Below the pieces are notes generated by a model. The model searched no databases. It saw only the letters and a program-made list of their open reading frames with translations, and had not been told where the DNA came from. Made by a program: the position numbers and the translations under genes. DNA of 64,000 bases from Candidatus Nitrososphaera gargensis Ga9.2 (GTDB taxonomy: Archaea; Thermoproteota; Nitrososphaeria; Nitrososphaerales; Nitrososphaeraceae): NCBI RefSeq assembly GCF_000303155.1, contig NC_018719.1, positions 2,108,001 to 2,172,000 on the forward strand. The letters are read 5' to 3'. Shown piece by piece: positions 49,509 through 60,592 of the stretch. The stretch's first letter is position 1. Each line of letters opens with the position of its first letter.

Positions 49509-50294
49509 ATGAAAGAAATTCCCTATGACCGCCTCCCAAGAGGGATAAAGCTCTGTATCCATAATGCCAATAGACTGCTTCAGGATGCAAAGCTGCTTAG
49601 GGATAACAAGAAATTTTCTTCTGCATTAGTATGTGCGATCTTTGCATATGAAGAGTTAGGCAAGGCCATTTCTCTTCGGGATAAATGGATCAAGAAAGAG
49701 AATCTCACATTGAAAGACTGGAAGCAGATGCTCGATCATGTCAAGAAATCTTACCACACAAACAAGTTCATGCAAAAAAAATCAGGAAGACAGTTTGATT
49801 CTGATGATAATGATTTTCGGCGGCAGCTTCAGAAGATAGAGGATGATATGCTTACGTTTGATGCTACAGAAAGAAGTATTTTTGAGAAGGAATCTAATCT
49901 GTATGTAAACTGGACAAAGGCTGGTTGGATATCACCTAATGATCTCGATAAGATTGATGGCATAGCGAACAGAAGAATATTGGAAGTTAGTTCTGCAATA
50001 GAGCATTTTCTTGATGAAGAGCAAACACAAGAGATTTTGAGTGCTCCTGAAAGTGAATGGATAGATAAGAAGAAGATAGAACTTGAACTTATGATGCTCT
50101 TGTTCTCATTTGACAGATATGACAACTCGATAAAGGTCGAGACGGTCGTAGAATCCGATAGAATAACCAAAATAATACTGACCAATTCTGGCCGTCGTCT
50201 CTCTGGTCAAGAAAAGCAATTGATCGTCTCTCACTTCAAGGAATATCAAACAATGAAAAAGACAAAATTCTTTTTTATCGAACACCAAAGTTAA
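49509..50294 (+). CDS. AbiV-like abortive-infection protein
   Basis: This 261-residue protein opens with CIHNANRLLQDAKLLRDNKK and ALVCAIFAYEELGKAISLRD, which is the AbiV family signature (helical HEPN-like core with an EELGK motif). AbiV proteins block phage translation in bacteria; here the role is inferred from family and from the nearby restriction-modification genes. The C-terminal 90 residues are less familiar. It has its own promoter-like AT-rich upstream region and no partner gene on the same strand close by. Confidence 0.7.
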   Translation: MKEIPYDRLPRGIKLCIHNANRLLQDAKLLRDNKKFSSALVCAIFAYEELGKAISLRDKWIKKENLTLKDWKQMLDHVKKSYHTNKFMQKKSGRQFDSDDNDFRRQLQKIEDDMLTFDATERSIFEKESNLYVNWTKAGWISPNDLDKIDGIANRRILEVSSAIEHFLDEEQTQEILSAPESEWIDKKKIELELMMLLFSFDRYDNSIKVETVVESDRITKIILTNSGRRLSGQEKQLIVSHFKEYQTMKKTKFFFIEHQS

Positions 50295-51653: not shown

Positions 51654-52429
51654 TTATAGGCTCGCTTGTTTCTTTTCTTCCCATAACAGTTCTGGCAATC
51701 CTATCATCTTTCTAAAGGTGTTCGCAGTCGCAGGGCCAAAGCCCGCATAGTGATTGGTTGCCGGTACAAATCCACCTTCAGGCTTGATCTTTTTTTATTA
51801 TTCCTGCCCAATATCTTAATTCCTTTTCCCTATCCTTTTGTATCTTGCCAAAGTCTTTTTCATCGATGCTCCTATCACCAATGAATCGAAGGTAGATGAA
51901 ATCTGTTGTTACAACTGGGAGTCTGAATTTTATCCTGCTGAGTCCAAGCCAAGCATAGCTCATTCTTTTTTAGAAAAGAGTAAACCTCTTCATCAAACCA
52001 GCTTTCATGCCTTGGTTCAATTGCGTACCTGAACCTTTTATCAAATGGCAGACTTTGGAGCTTTTTCAGCCCTTCCTTCATCGTCATTGAAGGCGGCAGC
52101 TGCAATAACAAGCAGCCAAGTTTGCCAGCTAATGGAGTCATGGCTTTGTAAAAGTACTCTAGGTCACTTTCAATTCCTTCTCCTAACCGCATGTCATGGG
52201 TCATGGATTTTGGGAACTTTGCAGTAAATCTAAAGTCGTCTGGAGTCACTTTTTCCCATCTACTAACTGTTAATTGGCTAGGTATTCGATAAAATGAAGA
52301 ATCAATCTCAACATAATCAAATACCATACTGTAGTACTCAAGGTACTTTGCTCCCTCAAGACCTTTAGGGTAAAAGTGACCTAGCCATGCAGAGTAGCTC
52401 CAGCCGGAGCAACCTATGTAGAGTTGCAT
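51654..52429 (-). pseudogene. Frameshifted DUF72 (YecE-like) protein
   Basis: The N-terminal part (51875-52429) reads LYIGCSGWSYSAWLGHFYPK and EIDSSFYRIPSQLTVSRWEK, the DUF72 TIM-barrel signature. Near 51915 the frame shifts to VVTTDFIYLRFIGDRSIDEK (51778-51963), and shifts again to NHYAGFGPATANTFRKMIGL, ending at TAA 51654. All three parts are needed for a full-length protein of about 258 residues. The biochemical role of the family is not settled. Confidence 0.75.
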
Positions 52430-54061: not shown

Positions 54062-54087
54062 ATTGTGACGCCCCCTCCCCCCAAAGT

Positions 54088-54122
54088 GCCAGCTATGTTT
54101 TATAATTTGTTTCAGAGCTGGC
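54088..54122. promoter_or_regulatory. TATA box bracketed by an inverted repeat
   Basis: GCCAGCT (54088-54094) and AGCTGGC (54116-54122) flank TTTATAATT (about 54098-54106), which lies about 25 nt before the ATG at 54126. A 7-bp inverted repeat that straddles the TATA box and reaches the start codon is well placed for a repressor of the polymerase operon. No such protein can be named. Confidence 0.5.
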
Positions 54123-54125
54123 GGT

Positions 54126-54998
54126 ATGGGGAACTGGAACAACATTACACAACATGTTGTCCAATATTTCTGCACCAAATGCAATACCCTGCTAAGGGAA
54201 ATTTCGTCATCTATCGAGTATGTACCTAGTGGTTCTGAACAGTGCCCATACTGCTCAAATCTTCTTTCAGAATCATTGAAAATAAGAAGAAAAAAGTCAG
54301 ATAAAGCAAAGCTCCCAAAGTTGCAAACAGCCTATGATTTGACAGCAAAACTCACCTTTGATATTCAAGACATTGATAATTCGATGGCCCTCTCAACAGA
54401 AGATAGGGCTTGCATAATTGGCAGTCGTAGGTATGCGAACTTGCTTGTTACAAGGCTTTGGGTTCGAGCATTAATGTCACAACGATATGGCGGCCTAGCA
54501 TCTAAAAGCGTACTATGCATTGATGCAGGGAATAGTACTAACCTGTACCAGTGTGTTAATTTCGCACGCCAGTACGGCATGGACATAAGAACTGTTCTTA
54601 GAAGGATAATTATTAGTAGGGCTTTCACAATCTACCAATTAGCAGGCTTAGTAATACGCAAGCTGCCAGAAGTGATCCATCAATTCAGTACAAAGATAGT
54701 GGTCATTTCTGACTTGCTGAACATGTTCCTGGATGATCCACAAATTAGGTACCGTGAGGCTCAATACCTGCTAAATCAGATTATGAATGCACTTTGGAAA
54801 TTGCCAAGAGATATTCTAGTCATAGTATCGATGTACAATTCAGCAAGCAAGTATGACAAGTTGATTCTTCCTAATTTCAGCAAACAAATCGAGTTGTCAG
54901 AAAGTGATCCTCTTCAGATTAGGCTGCTTCAGAACAAGCGTACCTTATCTGAATTTACAATGCCTGAGAATGCCTTGCGAATAGTTTCTGCTAGGTGA
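54126..54998 (+). CDS. Zinc-ribbon RadA-like protein without P-loop
   Basis: This 290-residue protein has an N-terminal zinc ribbon (C16-x2-C19, C40-x2-C43). A RecA/RadA-type core follows: SKSVLCIDAGNSTNLYQCVN, then QYGMDIRTVLRRIIISRAFT and TKIVVISDLLNMFLDD. This text follows archaeal RadA strands and the RIIVSRAFT helix closely. The region where Walker A should be (IIGSRRYANLLVTRLWVRAL) lacks G-x4-GK[ST], so ATP hydrolysis is unlikely. It is the first gene of a four-gene overlapping operon ending in a DNA polymerase. A structural or recruiting role like that of bacterial ImuA is inferred by analogy. Confidence 0.75.
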   Translation: MGNWNNITQHVVQYFCTKCNTLLREISSSIEYVPSGSEQCPYCSNLLSESLKIRRKKSDKAKLPKLQTAYDLTAKLTFDIQDIDNSMALSTEDRACIIGSRRYANLLVTRLWVRALMSQRYGGLASKSVLCIDAGNSTNLYQCVNFARQYGMDIRTVLRRIIISRAFTIYQLAGLVIRKLPEVIHQFSTKIVVISDLLNMFLDDPQIRYREAQYLLNQIMNALWKLPRDILVIVSMYNSASKYDKLILPNFSKQIELSESDPLQIRLLQNKRTLSEFTMPENALRIVSAR

Positions 54999-55282
54999 AG
55001 GCTTTGGGTAGAACAATACCGTCTTTTACAATGGCGTTAATGGAAGAAGAATCTGAGTGGAAGGGGTTTCGTAAATGCCTTGAAAGAAAGGAACGAAAGA
55101 TACTCGATGGCATGTTTGACAAGTCAAGGCTCTATATTCCATCTTGTATGTATTCTGCGAATCCTATTGTAATTTATCCTATCTTTCTTTCAATGCTTCT
55201 GCATCACTATAGGGAGCTGTCTGAGATAGTCAATCGAGTTGAACAGTTGACAGGAGAGAGGTATGACACTATTCCCAAATGA
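54995..55282 (+). CDS. Small helical protein A of the polymerase operon
   Basis: This 95-residue protein starts with GTG at 54995, overlapping the previous stop by 4 nt. It is predicted all-helical: WKGFRKCLERKERKILDGMF, then PIFLSMLLHHYRELSEIVNR. Its pattern (W-x2-F, ER-x4-D-x-M, a Y, F-x-x-MLL, then an amphipathic helix) repeats in the next gene, so the two look like paralogues. No family name is recognised. Confidence 0.65.
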   Translation: MKALGRTIPSFTMALMEEESEWKGFRKCLERKERKILDGMFDKSRLYIPSCMYSANPIVIYPIFLSMLLHHYRELSEIVNRVEQLTGERYDTIPK

Positions 55283-55529
55283 TGATATTATCACTCAAAT
55301 CATAGGCTCTTGGCAGAGCTATGCAGATGTACTGAATGCAGAAGATAGAATCGCATTTGATAACATGATGAAAAAATGCTACAAGTACTCACGATCAATC
55401 GAAGCCAAGGCAAAGCCATTTGAAAATGAAGCCTTGTTCATGGCTATGCTGCTTGAACAGGAGAAGATCATCCTGTGGCTGCTTGCCAAGATAGAGAAGC
55501 TTGAGAAAGGAAAAGTTGAGAAGCCTTGA
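55263..55529 (+). CDS. Small helical protein B of the polymerase operon
   Basis: This 88-residue protein has its start overlapping protein A by 20 nt and its stop overlapping the polymerase start by 4 nt. The helical text IIGSWQSYADVLNAEDRIAF and ALFMAMLLEQEKIILWLLAK parallels protein A. The last helix (LAKIEKLEKGKVEKP) could be a coiled coil. It is probably an accessory subunit of the polymerase, by context. Confidence 0.65.
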   Translation: MTLFPNDDIITQIIGSWQSYADVLNAEDRIAFDNMMKKCYKYSRSIEAKAKPFENEALFMAMLLEQEKIILWLLAKIEKLEKGKVEKP

Positions 55530-57787
55530 CTGTCTCAGGCTGGCTATTCGATTCCTACACTCTAGGAGACAGAATGATCTTTTGGATATTAACAGAGAGC
55601 GGCAGAGCTATAAAACTTGAAGATCAATGGACTCATTCGTTCTACGTTGCATCAGATAACTTGAAGGGTATTGCTAAGAACAAAGAATTAGCGGGATTCA
55701 TCAAGGGAATAGAAATCACTTCTAAATATGAAAGATTAACAGATCGTGTCAAGTCAGAACTGCTGAAGATAACCCTTGCAGATTCAAGGAAGGCAGAAAT
55801 GCTTGCTAATCGAATCTGGCAGTCGGGTGATTATGGACAATTCCGTTTGTACAATGTAGATTTGCTTCCTGCTCAATCCTATTTTTACGAACACGATCTA
55901 TTCCCACTGGCTTTCTGCAAAGTGAAGCCCTTACGATCAAGACTGCAATGGGAAGTACAAGACGATGTATGGTTAACAGATTATCGATTACCTGATTTCA
56001 GAACAATACGACTTGATATTAAACTACAGAGAGAAGGCAGACTGCCTAGCTTCACAGACAGAATAAAGTCTGTCTCAATCAAGAAGAATGACGATGATAC
56101 TACTATTGATATTGAAAAACAATCTGAAGCAGAAATTATTCAGGAACTAATATCAACAGTTACAGAGCTTGATCCTGATTTTGTACTCCTGCATGACGGA
56201 GATGCTTTCGTCTTTCCTTACCTAATCCGGAGAGCTGAAATGAATGGCATTGATCTGTTACTGAATAGAGAAAAGCTCAAGGTTTCAATGCCCTCCTATG
56301 AAGGAACTTCGTACGTGTCATATGGCAAGATACATTTCAAGCCTGCGACTGTGCCCTTGTTAGGCAGGATACATCTTGACTTTTCAAACTCATTTGTCTA
56401 CGATGAATCAGGAATGCAGGGATTCTTTGAAGTGGCTAGAATTTGCAGAATGCCGCTACATACTGCCTTTAGGGCCTCTATAGGCAAGTGTCTTAGTAGC
56501 TTGCAATTCTACCATGCTATAAAGAATGACCGCCTTGTACCTTGGAAGCCTGATGAAGCAGAGCACTTCAAGACTCTGGAAGAGTTGCTTCTAGCTGATA
56601 GGGGCGGCCTGATTCTAGTACCAATGATAGGTGTCCATGAGAAGGTTGCAGAGTTTGACTTTGTTTCGTTGTATCCAAACATCATGTACAAGAAGAATGT
56701 CTCGGCAGAAACAATATCCTGCAATTGCTGTATCGACTCAGATAGGAGAGTACCAGAGCTCAACTTCAATACCTGCAAGCAAAGAACAGGGATCGTTCCT
56801 ACTGCCTTAGAGATAGTAATCAAAAAGCGTTCTAAATACAAGCAACTAAAGAAGGCGGCCAAAGATAGCAAGTCAAAAGCAATCTACGATTCTAGACAGA
56901 ACGCATTGAAATGGATTAATGTCACAAGCTTTGGCTACCTTGGATTTAACAATGCGAAGTTCGGTAGAATAGATTCCCATCAGGCTGTATGTGCTTATGA
57001 CCGTCAGACTCTTTTGAGGGCTGTAAAGGTAGCTGAAAAACAAGGCTTTCGTGTTCTGCATGGCATAGTTGATTCACTGTGGGTTCAGAAGAGAGATGCT
57101 AGCGATGATGACTACCTAAAGCTGAAGCAGGATATTGAAGATGCAACAGGCTTTGAGATCAGTTTTGAAGGTGAATACAATTGGGTGGTATTCTTGCCAT
57201 CCAAGAGAAATGAAAAGCTGCCTGTACCAAACAGATACTTTGGAGTGTTCACTGATGGCTCTATCAAAGTAAGAGGTCTTGAAGCAAGAAGGCACGATAC
57301 GCCGCCGTTGTTTTCAAAGTTTCAACAAGAAGCATTGAAGATAATGGCAAAAGGAAAAACTATTCATGAAGTAAAGGCTCTCATGCCTGAAGTTAAAAAC
57401 TTGTTTAACCAGTATGTCCTGAGATTGAAGGAGGGGAGGGTACTACTTGAAGAACTGATGTTTACGAAACAACTTTCAAAAGATTCCGATCAATTTGAGA
57501 ATAGGAACACTGCTGAAATTAGCTCCATCCATCAACTGTCTGAAGAAGGTAAACCCTTGAAGGCAGGTCAAGTATTGCGCTACATCGTAACAGATTATTA
57601 TCAAAAGAAATCAAAGCAGAGAACTGTTCCTGAAGAGCTGATTGATGGAAGGACAACCTATGATGCAAAGCGGTACGTGGAGCTATTAGCAGAAACTTGT
57701 AATTCTATTACTGAACCATTTGGATATGAACTGCAAATAAACGAAGAAGGACAGGACTTGATGGGCTTCCCTTATAGTTCTATCTAG
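55526..57787 (+). CDS. B-family DNA polymerase with degenerate exonuclease
   Basis: This is a 753-residue polymerase. Palm motif A is FDFVSLYPN with D378. Motif B is LKWINVTSFGYLGF with K462 but V and T where N and S are usual. Motif C is HGIVDSLW, with D516 kept and the first aspartate of DTD replaced by I514. The two metal-binding aspartates are thus kept. Exonuclease motifs have decayed: Exo I reads LDIKL (D164, but K166 for E), Exo II has V229 for D, and Exo III is not found. It should copy DNA without proofreading. It is the last gene of the overlapping operon. Confidence 0.88.
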   Translation: MTVSGWLFDSYTLGDRMIFWILTESGRAIKLEDQWTHSFYVASDNLKGIAKNKELAGFIKGIEITSKYERLTDRVKSELLKITLADSRKAEMLANRIWQSGDYGQFRLYNVDLLPAQSYFYEHDLFPLAFCKVKPLRSRLQWEVQDDVWLTDYRLPDFRTIRLDIKLQREGRLPSFTDRIKSVSIKKNDDDTTIDIEKQSEAEIIQELISTVTELDPDFVLLHDGDAFVFPYLIRRAEMNGIDLLLNREKLKVSMPSYEGTSYVSYGKIHFKPATVPLLGRIHLDFSNSFVYDESGMQGFFEVARICRMPLHTAFRASIGKCLSSLQFYHAIKNDRLVPWKPDEAEHFKTLEELLLADRGGLILVPMIGVHEKVAEFDFVSLYPNIMYKKNVSAETISCNCCIDSDRRVPELNFNTCKQRTGIVPTALEIVIKKRSKYKQLKKAAKDSKSKAIYDSRQNALKWINVTSFGYLGFNNAKFGRIDSHQAVCAYDRQTLLRAVKVAEKQGFRVLHGIVDSLWVQKRDASDDDYLKLKQDIEDATGFEISFEGEYNWVVFLPSKRNEKLPVPNRYFGVFTDGSIKVRGLEARRHDTPPLFSKFQQEALKIMAKGKTIHEVKALMPEVKNLFNQYVLRLKEGRVLLEELMFTKQLSKDSDQFENRNTAEISSIHQLSEEGKPLKAGQVLRYIVTDYYQKKSKQRTVPEELIDGRTTYDAKRYVELLAETCNSITEPFGYELQINEEGQDLMGFPYSSI

Positions 57788-58265: not shown

Positions 58266-59060
58266 GTGGACTTGTCAGCTTCTTGGGAGCATACCTTGAC
58301 ATTGTTAGAGCTGACGGAAAGCGAAATCGCAGCTTTTCTCGATCCTGCATTGAAATCGATTCCGCCACCTATCAAGATATTGCAAGAATCAATCGATAGC
58401 CTCCCATTCAAAAAGCTAGAACCTGAATATGTCAAGAACCACTTCTCTGAAGTTATGGAGCTTGTAACAGATAACGCCTTTGCCAAATTCAAGGTGTATC
58501 AACGAATGGCTTCGAGGCCAGTGATTCAGAAGTTCATGGAGAAGTATGGGCCTGAGATAGAAGCGAACACCAAGAATCAAAAGGAGTTTGTTTCAGAGCT
58601 CTTAGACATATTCATGCCTGTTGCTGTGTCCTTTGAATTTAGGACAAGTCAAATGAGAAAGTCCAGAGCTGGCACTACGTTTGAACATATCACAGTATTC
58701 CTATTGCAAAAATGCGGTATCAAATGTGAGAGGACCGCCAAGAGTGTACGTAAGAAAATGAACAGAATGGACATTGTTATTCCAAATCAGGAAGTGGCAT
58801 TAAAGAAACCCGATCAGGCAAAGTTCCTTTCATGCAAGCACACGTTGAGAGAGAGATGGAAGCAAGCTTTACCAGAGAAGAATAGGAATTGGGTAATGTA
58901 CCTTATCACTATGGATGATGATATTCCAGATCAGAAGGCTAAAGAAATCAATGATCACAATCTAATCGTATATGTCAAGGATCAGGTTAAGGCCAAGAGC
59001 TATCTTGCAAAGAAGGATTGGATTAGAAAGTTATCCGACCTTCCTAAAGACTTGAGGTAA
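58266..59060 (+). CDS. Type II restriction endonuclease, PD-(D/E)xK fold
   Basis: This 264-residue protein starts with GTG 58266. The nuclease core lies in the second half: RAGTTFEHITVFLLQKCGIK, the aspartate in NRMDIVIPN, and FLSCKHTLRERWKQALPEKN with the catalytic lysine. The CKHTLRERWKQ block is characteristic of several type II enzymes (EcoRII-C-like group, from memory). The N-terminal half is helical. It is convergent with a DNA methyltransferase 3 nt away, so the pair forms a restriction-modification system. The recognition site cannot be told. Confidence 0.78.
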   Translation: MDLSASWEHTLTLLELTESEIAAFLDPALKSIPPPIKILQESIDSLPFKKLEPEYVKNHFSEVMELVTDNAFAKFKVYQRMASRPVIQKFMEKYGPEIEANTKNQKEFVSELLDIFMPVAVSFEFRTSQMRKSRAGTTFEHITVFLLQKCGIKCERTAKSVRKKMNRMDIVIPNQEVALKKPDQAKFLSCKHTLRERWKQALPEKNRNWVMYLITMDDDIPDQKAKEINDHNLIVYVKDQVKAKSYLAKKDWIRKLSDLPKDLR

Positions 59061-59063
59061 TAA

Positions 59064-60347
59064 TTAGTATTTCCACACAACTATATTTTCCTTTGAAATT
59101 GTTTCGCCTTTGAGAGCTATTTCATTCTCTGGAGCATTTTGCAAAGGCATTGTCTTGTTTGGAATTTCTCGGTGGTATGTGTCATAATACTTGAACCCAT
59201 GCTTGTGACCAAGTTCAATCATAATCTGATCCGCAGGTACTACCATGCGCTTTACAGTCCTATTGCCTAGAACAAAGCAGATCGTACTCTTCCTTTTCTT
59301 CATGACCTTTGCAATCTGAGCAAAGCAGGTATCAATATCTTTGAAGAAGGCATAGGTTTCTCTGGCCCTATATTCGTCTGCATCTGCTATCATGTGCAGA
59401 GTATGAGTTAATGCGGGACTTTCCAAATCTTCTACTTCATCAAAGAGCTTTCCGCCAAGGGCAATCCTGTCTACTTTCCAGACTTCCTCTTCATCAAAGT
59501 CCAGCCATGCAGAAGAGTATCGAGAGAACTGCCCATAGGCGACAGTGGTATGGGAATCACCATAGGGTGGAGAGGTAATCAGAAGAGTAGCACAATTTTC
59601 ATACAGATTCCTTGGATCAAGCTCAAGTAACTTCCTTGTATCACCTTTTACTACAATCGATTTAACAGACTTGTCAACAGCCTTGTAGAACTTGTCCATT
59701 CTCTGAATGTTGTTGTTGGTTACTTCCGAGAATGCAAGTAGTGGTTTTGGATCATGGAGCTTTAACTTGTCTGGCGGCAGTCGATATAACTTAAATTCTC
59801 CTGATCGAATGTTGCTAACCTTCCTGACTGTTACTGAAAAGCAAACTTTGAAAAAGTCCTGTACATCCTTATTCTCTATTTTGTTAATGTGGTGCTTGAT
59901 GATCGCAAGGCCATTAATTGCCTGTGGCTTGAACCAGTATTCAAGGTTCTTTATTGTTGGAACTTCGACTGGCTTCTCCTTGGAAATATCTCCTTCAATC
60001 TTTTGACGCAGACTGCTCCATTCCCTTTCAAGTACTTCCTTTTTGATTGGAGTAGTCTTTACTTTTGAGATAAGAACCGCAAGAGGATTGGCATCAACTC
60101 CCACTGATTTTATTCCTTTTAGTTTGGCTTCTACCAGGACTGTACCCGATCCACAAAAGGGATCAATACACAAGTCGTCAGACTCAGACTTCGCAAACTT
60201 GGTAATTAGTTTCTCTGTGACTTGCGGAATCATTCGGGCAGGATAAGTATGCAGGCCATGAGTCATTCGCCTTGTATCGGCATCTGCAAATGTCCAGTCG
60301 TCCTTGATTTCCCTTTTCCTTTCTGGGCCTTCAAAGGTCGATTGCAT
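59064..60347 (-). CDS. DNA methyltransferase of the restriction-modification pair
   Basis: This 427-residue amino-methyltransferase (N4-cytosine or N6-adenine type) has the order motif I CIDPFCGSGTVLVEA (near residue 63), then motif IV TSPPYGDSHTTVAYGQFSR (near 260). The catalytic block is SPPY. The early MTHGLHTYPARMIPQV is typical of enzymes that scan for double-stranded sites. ATG 60347 is preferred to the TTG at 60350. It protects host DNA from the convergent endonuclease. Confidence 0.88.
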   Translation of the reverse strand: MQSTFEGPERKREIKDDWTFADADTRRMTHGLHTYPARMIPQVTEKLITKFAKSESDDLCIDPFCGSGTVLVEAKLKGIKSVGVDANPLAVLISKVKTTPIKKEVLEREWSSLRQKIEGDISKEKPVEVPTIKNLEYWFKPQAINGLAIIKHHINKIENKDVQDFFKVCFSVTVRKVSNIRSGEFKLYRLPPDKLKLHDPKPLLAFSEVTNNNIQRMDKFYKAVDKSVKSIVVKGDTRKLLELDPRNLYENCATLLITSPPYGDSHTTVAYGQFSRYSSAWLDFDEEEVWKVDRIALGGKLFDEVEDLESPALTHTLHMIADADEYRARETYAFFKDIDTCFAQIAKVMKKRKSTICFVLGNRTVKRMVVPADQIMIELGHKHGFKYYDTYHREIPNKTMPLQNAPENEIALKGETISKENIVVWKY

Positions 60348-60592
60348 CAAATGTCAGCTCCGTTAGAAAGGGCGATGACGTTGTGACAGTCTAACTCCAA
60401 GCTCAAGTCAGACCAATTCTTCACGTATGAAGCAGAACTTACACCATCTATTAAAGTAATCGAAGCTTTTCCGTCTGCTCTGCGATTGAAGGAGACCGAT
60501 TCAGGTAATATGAGCCTGTTAAGACTCGGCTGAACCTCGCCTTCGTATTATGGCATAATACTTAAGAGCAGACAGGCTTTCAGATTTCACCA

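Follow-up and report, generated by a model that had tools for sequence, protein, structure and literature searches.

The region described here is a 64,000-nucleotide stretch (referred to below as the window; positions 2,108,001 to 2,172,000 of NC_018719.1) of the soil archaeon Candidatus Nitrososphaera gargensis Ga9.2, whose genome is a single contig of 2,833,868 bases. Four open reading frames (ORFs) are tightly packed on one strand of the window (54126-54998, 54995-55282, 55263-55529 and 55526-57787 in the ORF list). They encode a RadA homologue lacking its ATPase motifs (iRadA), two small proteins (PPB2 and PPB2') and a B-family DNA polymerase (PolB2). Judged from its sequence, this operon is a soil-archaeon copy of the PolB2 mutasome, a system which has already been described. 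A preliminary description of the locus had presented it as a four-gene operon joined by overlapping stops and starts. The genes are indeed packed and co-directional, but the overlap between the first two is probably replaced by a short gap, because gene 2 starts at an in-frame TTG at 55004 (MGRT...). The arrangement is not due to chance, since the gene order recurs in about 30 genomes whose polymerases share 42-60% identity.

The first gene (54126-54998, forward strand) encodes iRadA, a zinc ribbon joined to a RadA fold. The Pfam Rad51 profile matches at 24.2 bits (cut-off 22), and the AlphaFold2 model (predicted local distance difference test score, pLDDT, 88) has RadA/RAD51 proteins as its top PDB matches. 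Instead of the N-terminal helical domain there is a CxxC...CxxC ribbon; such paired motifs are found at the N-terminus of most close relatives and are absent from other relatives. GEFG[TS]GK[TS] is intact in the two full-length RadAs encoded by this genome. Walker A is missing from iRadA, as had been noticed initially, and so is the Walker B aspartate. The same is true of every aligned iRadA relative, so that an intact P-loop in the relatives, which was to count against the first interpretation, was not found. Sliding-clamp motifs in the C-terminal region of iRadA or PolB2 occur in some members according to the PolB2 mutasome literature; the candidates here, KRTLSEFT in iRadA and QDLMGFPY in PolB2, are weak and are not kept in relatives.

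The two small proteins seen between the RadA-like gene and the polymerase are diverged copies of each other (phmmer E 2e-4 to 5e-4), which points to gene duplication. Gene 2 (PPB2, arCOG07300; 55004-55282, forward strand) was originally read from a GTG at 54995, overlooking the probable start, an in-frame TTG from which the protein opens MGRTIPSF, the conserved PPB2 arm. Gene 3 (PPB2'; 55263-55529, forward strand) aligns as a second PPB2 copy without MGRT. In our count from the alignment, MGRT or MGRS opens the first PPB2 copy at 35 loci and the second copy at none. This agrees with the published rule that just one copy of PPB2 duplicates has MGRT (PMC11791011). At a few relatives' loci the PPB2 copies are fused together.

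Gene 4 (55526-57787, forward strand) encodes PolB2. Pfam, the alignment and the model (pLDDT 92, with archaeal PolB as top structure matches) all identify a B-family polymerase. Its exonuclease acids are mostly gone: ExoI D-I-E has become D-I-K and ExoII N..FD has become D..FV, while ExoIII is not clearly alignable. The loss of exonuclease residues proposed from the sequence therefore holds, and relatives likewise lack an exonuclease. Of the three palm aspartates, all initially taken to be present, only two remain. Motif A (FDFVSLYP) is intact with Asp378, and motif C (HGIVDS, as against YGDTDS) has its second aspartate, Asp516, but Ile514 takes the place of the first Asp of DxD. This loss is the usual PolB2 state, and S. 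islandicus Dpo2 also lacks the first DxD aspartate. D378 and D516 are invariant over 46 aligned PolB2 sequences, as is D358, which belongs to a D(K/R)GG motif before the palm (here D358-R359-G-G) that is present in all PolB2 rows but one and in none of six canonical PolBs. The frame of the canonical PolB of the same genome is 1,589 amino acids long with its polymerase match split in two; two inteins have been reported in PolB1 of Ca. Nitrososphaera gargensis (Makarova 2014, PMC4104785).

An operon of PolB2, an inactive RadA and arCOG07300 was described by Makarova 2014 (PMC4104785). Timinskas 2025 (PMC11791011) introduced the names PPB2 and iRadA, presented a model of a PolB2:iRadA:PPB2(3) complex, found that PolB2 modelled poorly with active RadA, and drew the parallel with Pol V (UmuD'2C-RecA). 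The window operon resembles this mutasome in its three protein families and their order, in the inactivation of both RadA and the exonuclease, in the D(K/R) motif, in having a DUF72 gene close by and in the restriction of the MGRT arm to one PPB2 copy. It differs in the N-terminal zinc ribbon of iRadA (the word "zinc" is absent from the main text of PMC11791011) and in the promoter box and RadA2 link presented below, which were not found in the mutasome papers. We consider the PolB2 mutasome very likely to be the best explanation of the operon. The archaeal damage-tolerance complex suggested earlier was thus right in kind and matches this known system, but it is not new.

Two bacterial systems provide points of comparison. 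As in E. coli Pol V, a lesion-bypass polymerase would be bound to a protein of the RecA family and to a small subunit that bears an arm; here, however, the polymerase is of the B rather than the Y family, the RecA-fold partner is ATPase-dead and PPB2 is unlike UmuD'. The ImuA-ImuB-DnaE2 mutasome, on whose logic the first interpretation was built, shares a dead RecA-like protein and a damage-tolerance polymerase in one operon. The likeness is an analogy only, as the operon includes neither a Y-family ImuB nor a C-family DnaE2. Homology was rejected, as the Pfam matches of the operon proteins are Rad51 and PolB only.

Sulfolobus Dpo2 is damage-inducible and responsible for targeted mutagenesis, according to the abstract of PMC7390963. 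The enzyme from S. islandicus is described in the abstract of PMC8764526 as a robust polymerase with no exonuclease, accurate on undamaged DNA and acting as an extender past lesions. The term "error-prone-looking", applied earlier to the polymerase, is best taken as mismatch extension in the light of these abstracts. From the Sulfolobus work and the published AlphaFold models of relatives, we infer mutasome assembly, damage induction and extender activity here also. PolB2, without proofreading and one palm aspartate, would be held by iRadA and PPB2, the MGRT arm of PPB2 would reach towards the PolB2 active site, and the polymerase would continue synthesis from primers beyond lesions at which the replicative polymerase stops.

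The distribution of the system was examined in 300 genomes of the class Nitrososphaeria. By our count, 39 of the 45 genomes from the same family have strong PolB2 matches (E < 1e-80), and scattered matches occur elsewhere in the class. A related-locus search with the PolB2 protein alone in genome contigs gave no match; the genome search did. About 30 loci have the order iRadA-PPB2(-PPB2')-PolB2, and the order is therefore not unique to this genome, a possibility which the preliminary description had left room for. Two 99%-complete genomes of the same genus (G131 and G137) have neither PolB2 nor iRadA, and in G169 (contig C5, locus L107) the PPB2 frames after iRadA are disrupted and PolB2 is missing, which marks an operon in decay. 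Together these suggest that loss of the system tends to involve all of its genes. The contig LDIY01000068.1, filed as a metagenome-assembled genome (MAG) of a TM6 bacterium, includes iRadA, two PPB2, PolB2 and a Nitrososphaera-type box, and is probably a misbinned archaeal contig.

This box first emerged from a comparison of upstream regions. Upstream of the operon it reads GCCCCCTCCCCCCAAAGTGC (54070-54089, forward strand; consensus nCCCCCTC[C/T]CC-N5-GTGC) and is a candidate damage-regulon box. It is followed 8 nucleotides (nt) further on by a TATA-like element, TTTTATAA (54098-54105, forward strand), about 24 nt before the ATG, and the N8 spacing is common to box promoters. The operon promoter would thus be leaderless. 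An inverted repeat, GCCAGCT/AGCTGGC (arms 54088-54094 and 54116-54122), surrounds the TATA element; the pair has one other occurrence in the genome.

The pattern CCCCYTCCCCN{1,7}GTGC occurs at four sites in the genome against 0.02 expected under a third-order Markov model. They precede the window operon, one RadA gene, a radical-SAM gene and a gene for a 330-amino-acid protein without a Pfam match. Although one to seven bases were allowed, the spacer is 5 bases in every same-genus match. When 70 genomes of the family were scanned, the exact 19-bp box was found at 36 places in 12 of the 18 same-genus genomes and at none in the 52 others; the backward control also gave none. The distance from the beginning of the box to the start codon is mostly 55-61 nt, and TTAT follows GTGC by 8 nt in most cases. 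An exact scan for box plus TTAT in 84,980 prokaryotic genomes (257 Gb) gave 31 matches, of which 27 are from Nitrososphaera(ceae) and four comprise the TM6-filed contig with its PolB2 operon and three others. The records with the same promoter that carry names are Nitrososphaera MAGs. Neither a description of the box nor a damage-response cis element of Thaumarchaeota was found in a limited search of the open-access literature. Nor are we aware of any cis element in Thaumarchaeota that acts in a damage response.

The genes behind 28 box promoters are those of RadA2 (nine), PolB2 operons (four), radical-SAM proteins (four), a DUF72-PolY protein (one), small zinc proteins (six), a SWIM protein (one) and others (three). 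RadA2 is one of two groups, with 100/99 support, formed by the sampled RadAs in a tree. It includes the box-bearing RadA of this genome and the RadAs beside iRadA(-PPB2)-PolB2 in deep-branching genomes, with the remainder constituting RadA1. At several deep-branching loci (L064, L075, L076, L077, L079, L080, L081 and L088) a P-loop-intact RadA lies near iRadA, often PPB2-fused, and PolB2; most genomes with such a mutasome-linked RadA carry another RadA elsewhere. In these deep-branching relatives RadA2 forms part of the mutasome locus, and a C-rich box of related sequence accompanies it. In loci fetched independently of the box, CCCTCCCC is found upstream of RadA2 in eight of ten, including four deep-branching ones, and upstream of RadA1 in none of ten. 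Physical linkage in some lineages and promoter linkage in others suggest that RadA2 is tied to the mutasome.

DUF72 is a recurrent neighbour, and many relatives have it adjoining iRadA or PolB2. A single ORF of about 600 amino acids that fuses it to a Y-family polymerase (DUF72-PolY) is present in many family genomes (e.g. G137:C30:66322), a fusion which suggests that DUF72 acts in lesion bypass. The DUF72-PolY gene of this genome (1034142-1035584) has a variant box, CCCCCTCTCT-N5-GTGC, and variant boxes accompany DUF72-PolY in four further same-genus genomes. In G131, a complete genome of 2.53 Mb, the promoters of RadA2 and DUF72-PolY both carry box-like sequences, and PolB2 is absent. In the window itself a DUF72 gene (51778-52429, reverse strand), whose 5' part scores 152 bits with Pfam DUF72, lacks a single continuous reading frame and is either a pseudogene or a sequencing error.

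The radical-SAM protein was not accepted as a spore photoproduct lyase, since it reaches 23 bits where the cut-off is 400. It fits the PA0069/Rv2578c-type families better, again below their cut-offs, and a literature search on Rv2578c gave no match naming it. The 330-amino-acid protein behind an exact box (2281028 of the genome) has no Pfam or NCBIfam match; its ILYAGDFDPYG gives the impression, and only that, of TOPRIM proteins.

These observations lead us to propose an SOS-like regulon in Nitrososphaera, in which the box would co-regulate the P-loop-intact RadA2, the PolB2 mutasome, DUF72-PolY and the radical-SAM enzyme, with RadA2 as recombinase partner of the mutasome, as RecA is of Pol V. 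This proposal, which relies on sequence comparison, has a slight balance of probability in its favour. As in the bacterial SOS/LexA system, a common box stands, here at fixed spacing, before recombinase and translesion-polymerase genes; it differs in that the Nitrososphaera box is C-rich and upstream of a TATA element, and the damage response is only proposed. Damage would free or recruit a putative regulator at the box, and RadA2, mutasome and DUF72-PolY would rise together. RadA2 might then coat single-stranded DNA, PolY or the replicase insert opposite the lesion, and PolB2 with iRadA and PPB2 extend.

Several points weigh against this picture. The exact box is confined to one genus and many relatives' iRadA promoters are without it; CCCTCCCC is present in nine of 48 iRadA promoters. 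A looser box pattern in one other genus gave no more than a single site in any genome and matched in five of the eight; its four exact sites there lie at iRadA promoters, so that the regulon is not replicated in that genus. In several genera (g2, g5, g8 and others) PolB2 stands alone with iRadA, often with PPB2, elsewhere in the genome, and the linkage is not obligatory. Boxes before small zinc, SWIM or TnpB-like genes, or with no recognisable gene behind them, may indicate a broader stress response. A separate observation is that another lineage (L031, L032, L055 and L058) shares a different conserved stretch, approximately GATCGGGGTATTCTGACATTACCTGCCCTATTAAG, before iRadA, possibly a lineage-specific operator.

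The most serious alternative concerns the regulon only: the box could be a general strong-promoter or other-stress element rather than a damage operator. Several box promoters do precede small zinc proteins or unassigned genes, and we regard this as a real, if less probable, explanation. It is opposed by the scarcity of the box, since even with up to two mismatches the genome has eleven matches, at least two of which are inside genes and likely due to chance, by the 18 of 28 box promoters that precede RadA2, PolB2 operons, DUF72-PolY or radical-SAM genes, and by the absence of the element from all ten RadA1 loci compared.

A second alternative concerns the operon. The polymerase and the RadA homologue could be dead scaffolds regulating replication initiation or fork restart, in keeping with the inactivation and the repair or replication-regulation role first proposed for PolB2 by Makarova 2014 (PMC4104785) and with the loss of one palm aspartate, the exonuclease and the Walker motifs. 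This appears improbable in view of the invariance of D378 and D516 and of the robust activity (PMC8764526) and targeted mutagenesis (PMC7390963) which the abstracts attribute to Dpo2, an enzyme that has lost the same aspartate in S. islandicus.

Least likely of all is a replication polymerase system of an integrated mobile element, also raised in the preliminary description: PolB2 homologues do occur in phage and plasmid records, including Leptospira phages (KF114879.1, 53671-63791) in which PolB2 is immediately preceded by genes resembling iRadA and PPB2, the operon is absent from some complete same-genus genomes, and its neighbours include an EcoRII-like nuclease and methylase pair and an AbiV-like gene, but PolB2 is present in most of the family genomes searched, the operon shares its promoter with a chromosomal radA, viral and plasmid relatives are all at or below 43% identity, and no integrase or replication protein was found among ten neighbouring proteins scanned.

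In the phage record the mutasome genes carry no annotation beyond "DNA polymerase family B" and "hypothetical protein". Among the neighbours of the window operon, an EcoRII-C-type nuclease (58266-59060, forward strand) and a convergent N6/N4 DNA methylase (59064-60350, reverse strand) lie just downstream and are likely a restriction-modification pair. The AbiV-like HEPN protein (49509-50294, forward strand; Pfam HEPN_AbiV, 102 bits) is a possible defence gene.

As a PolB2 mutasome, the operon brings soil ammonia oxidisers within the range of a known archaeal translesion complex, which is widespread in their family. The regulon proposed around it, if true, would provide a concrete set of co-regulated genes for a globally abundant group, an SOS-like logic assembled from archaeal parts, and would single out one particular RadA paralogue as the mutasome's active partner.

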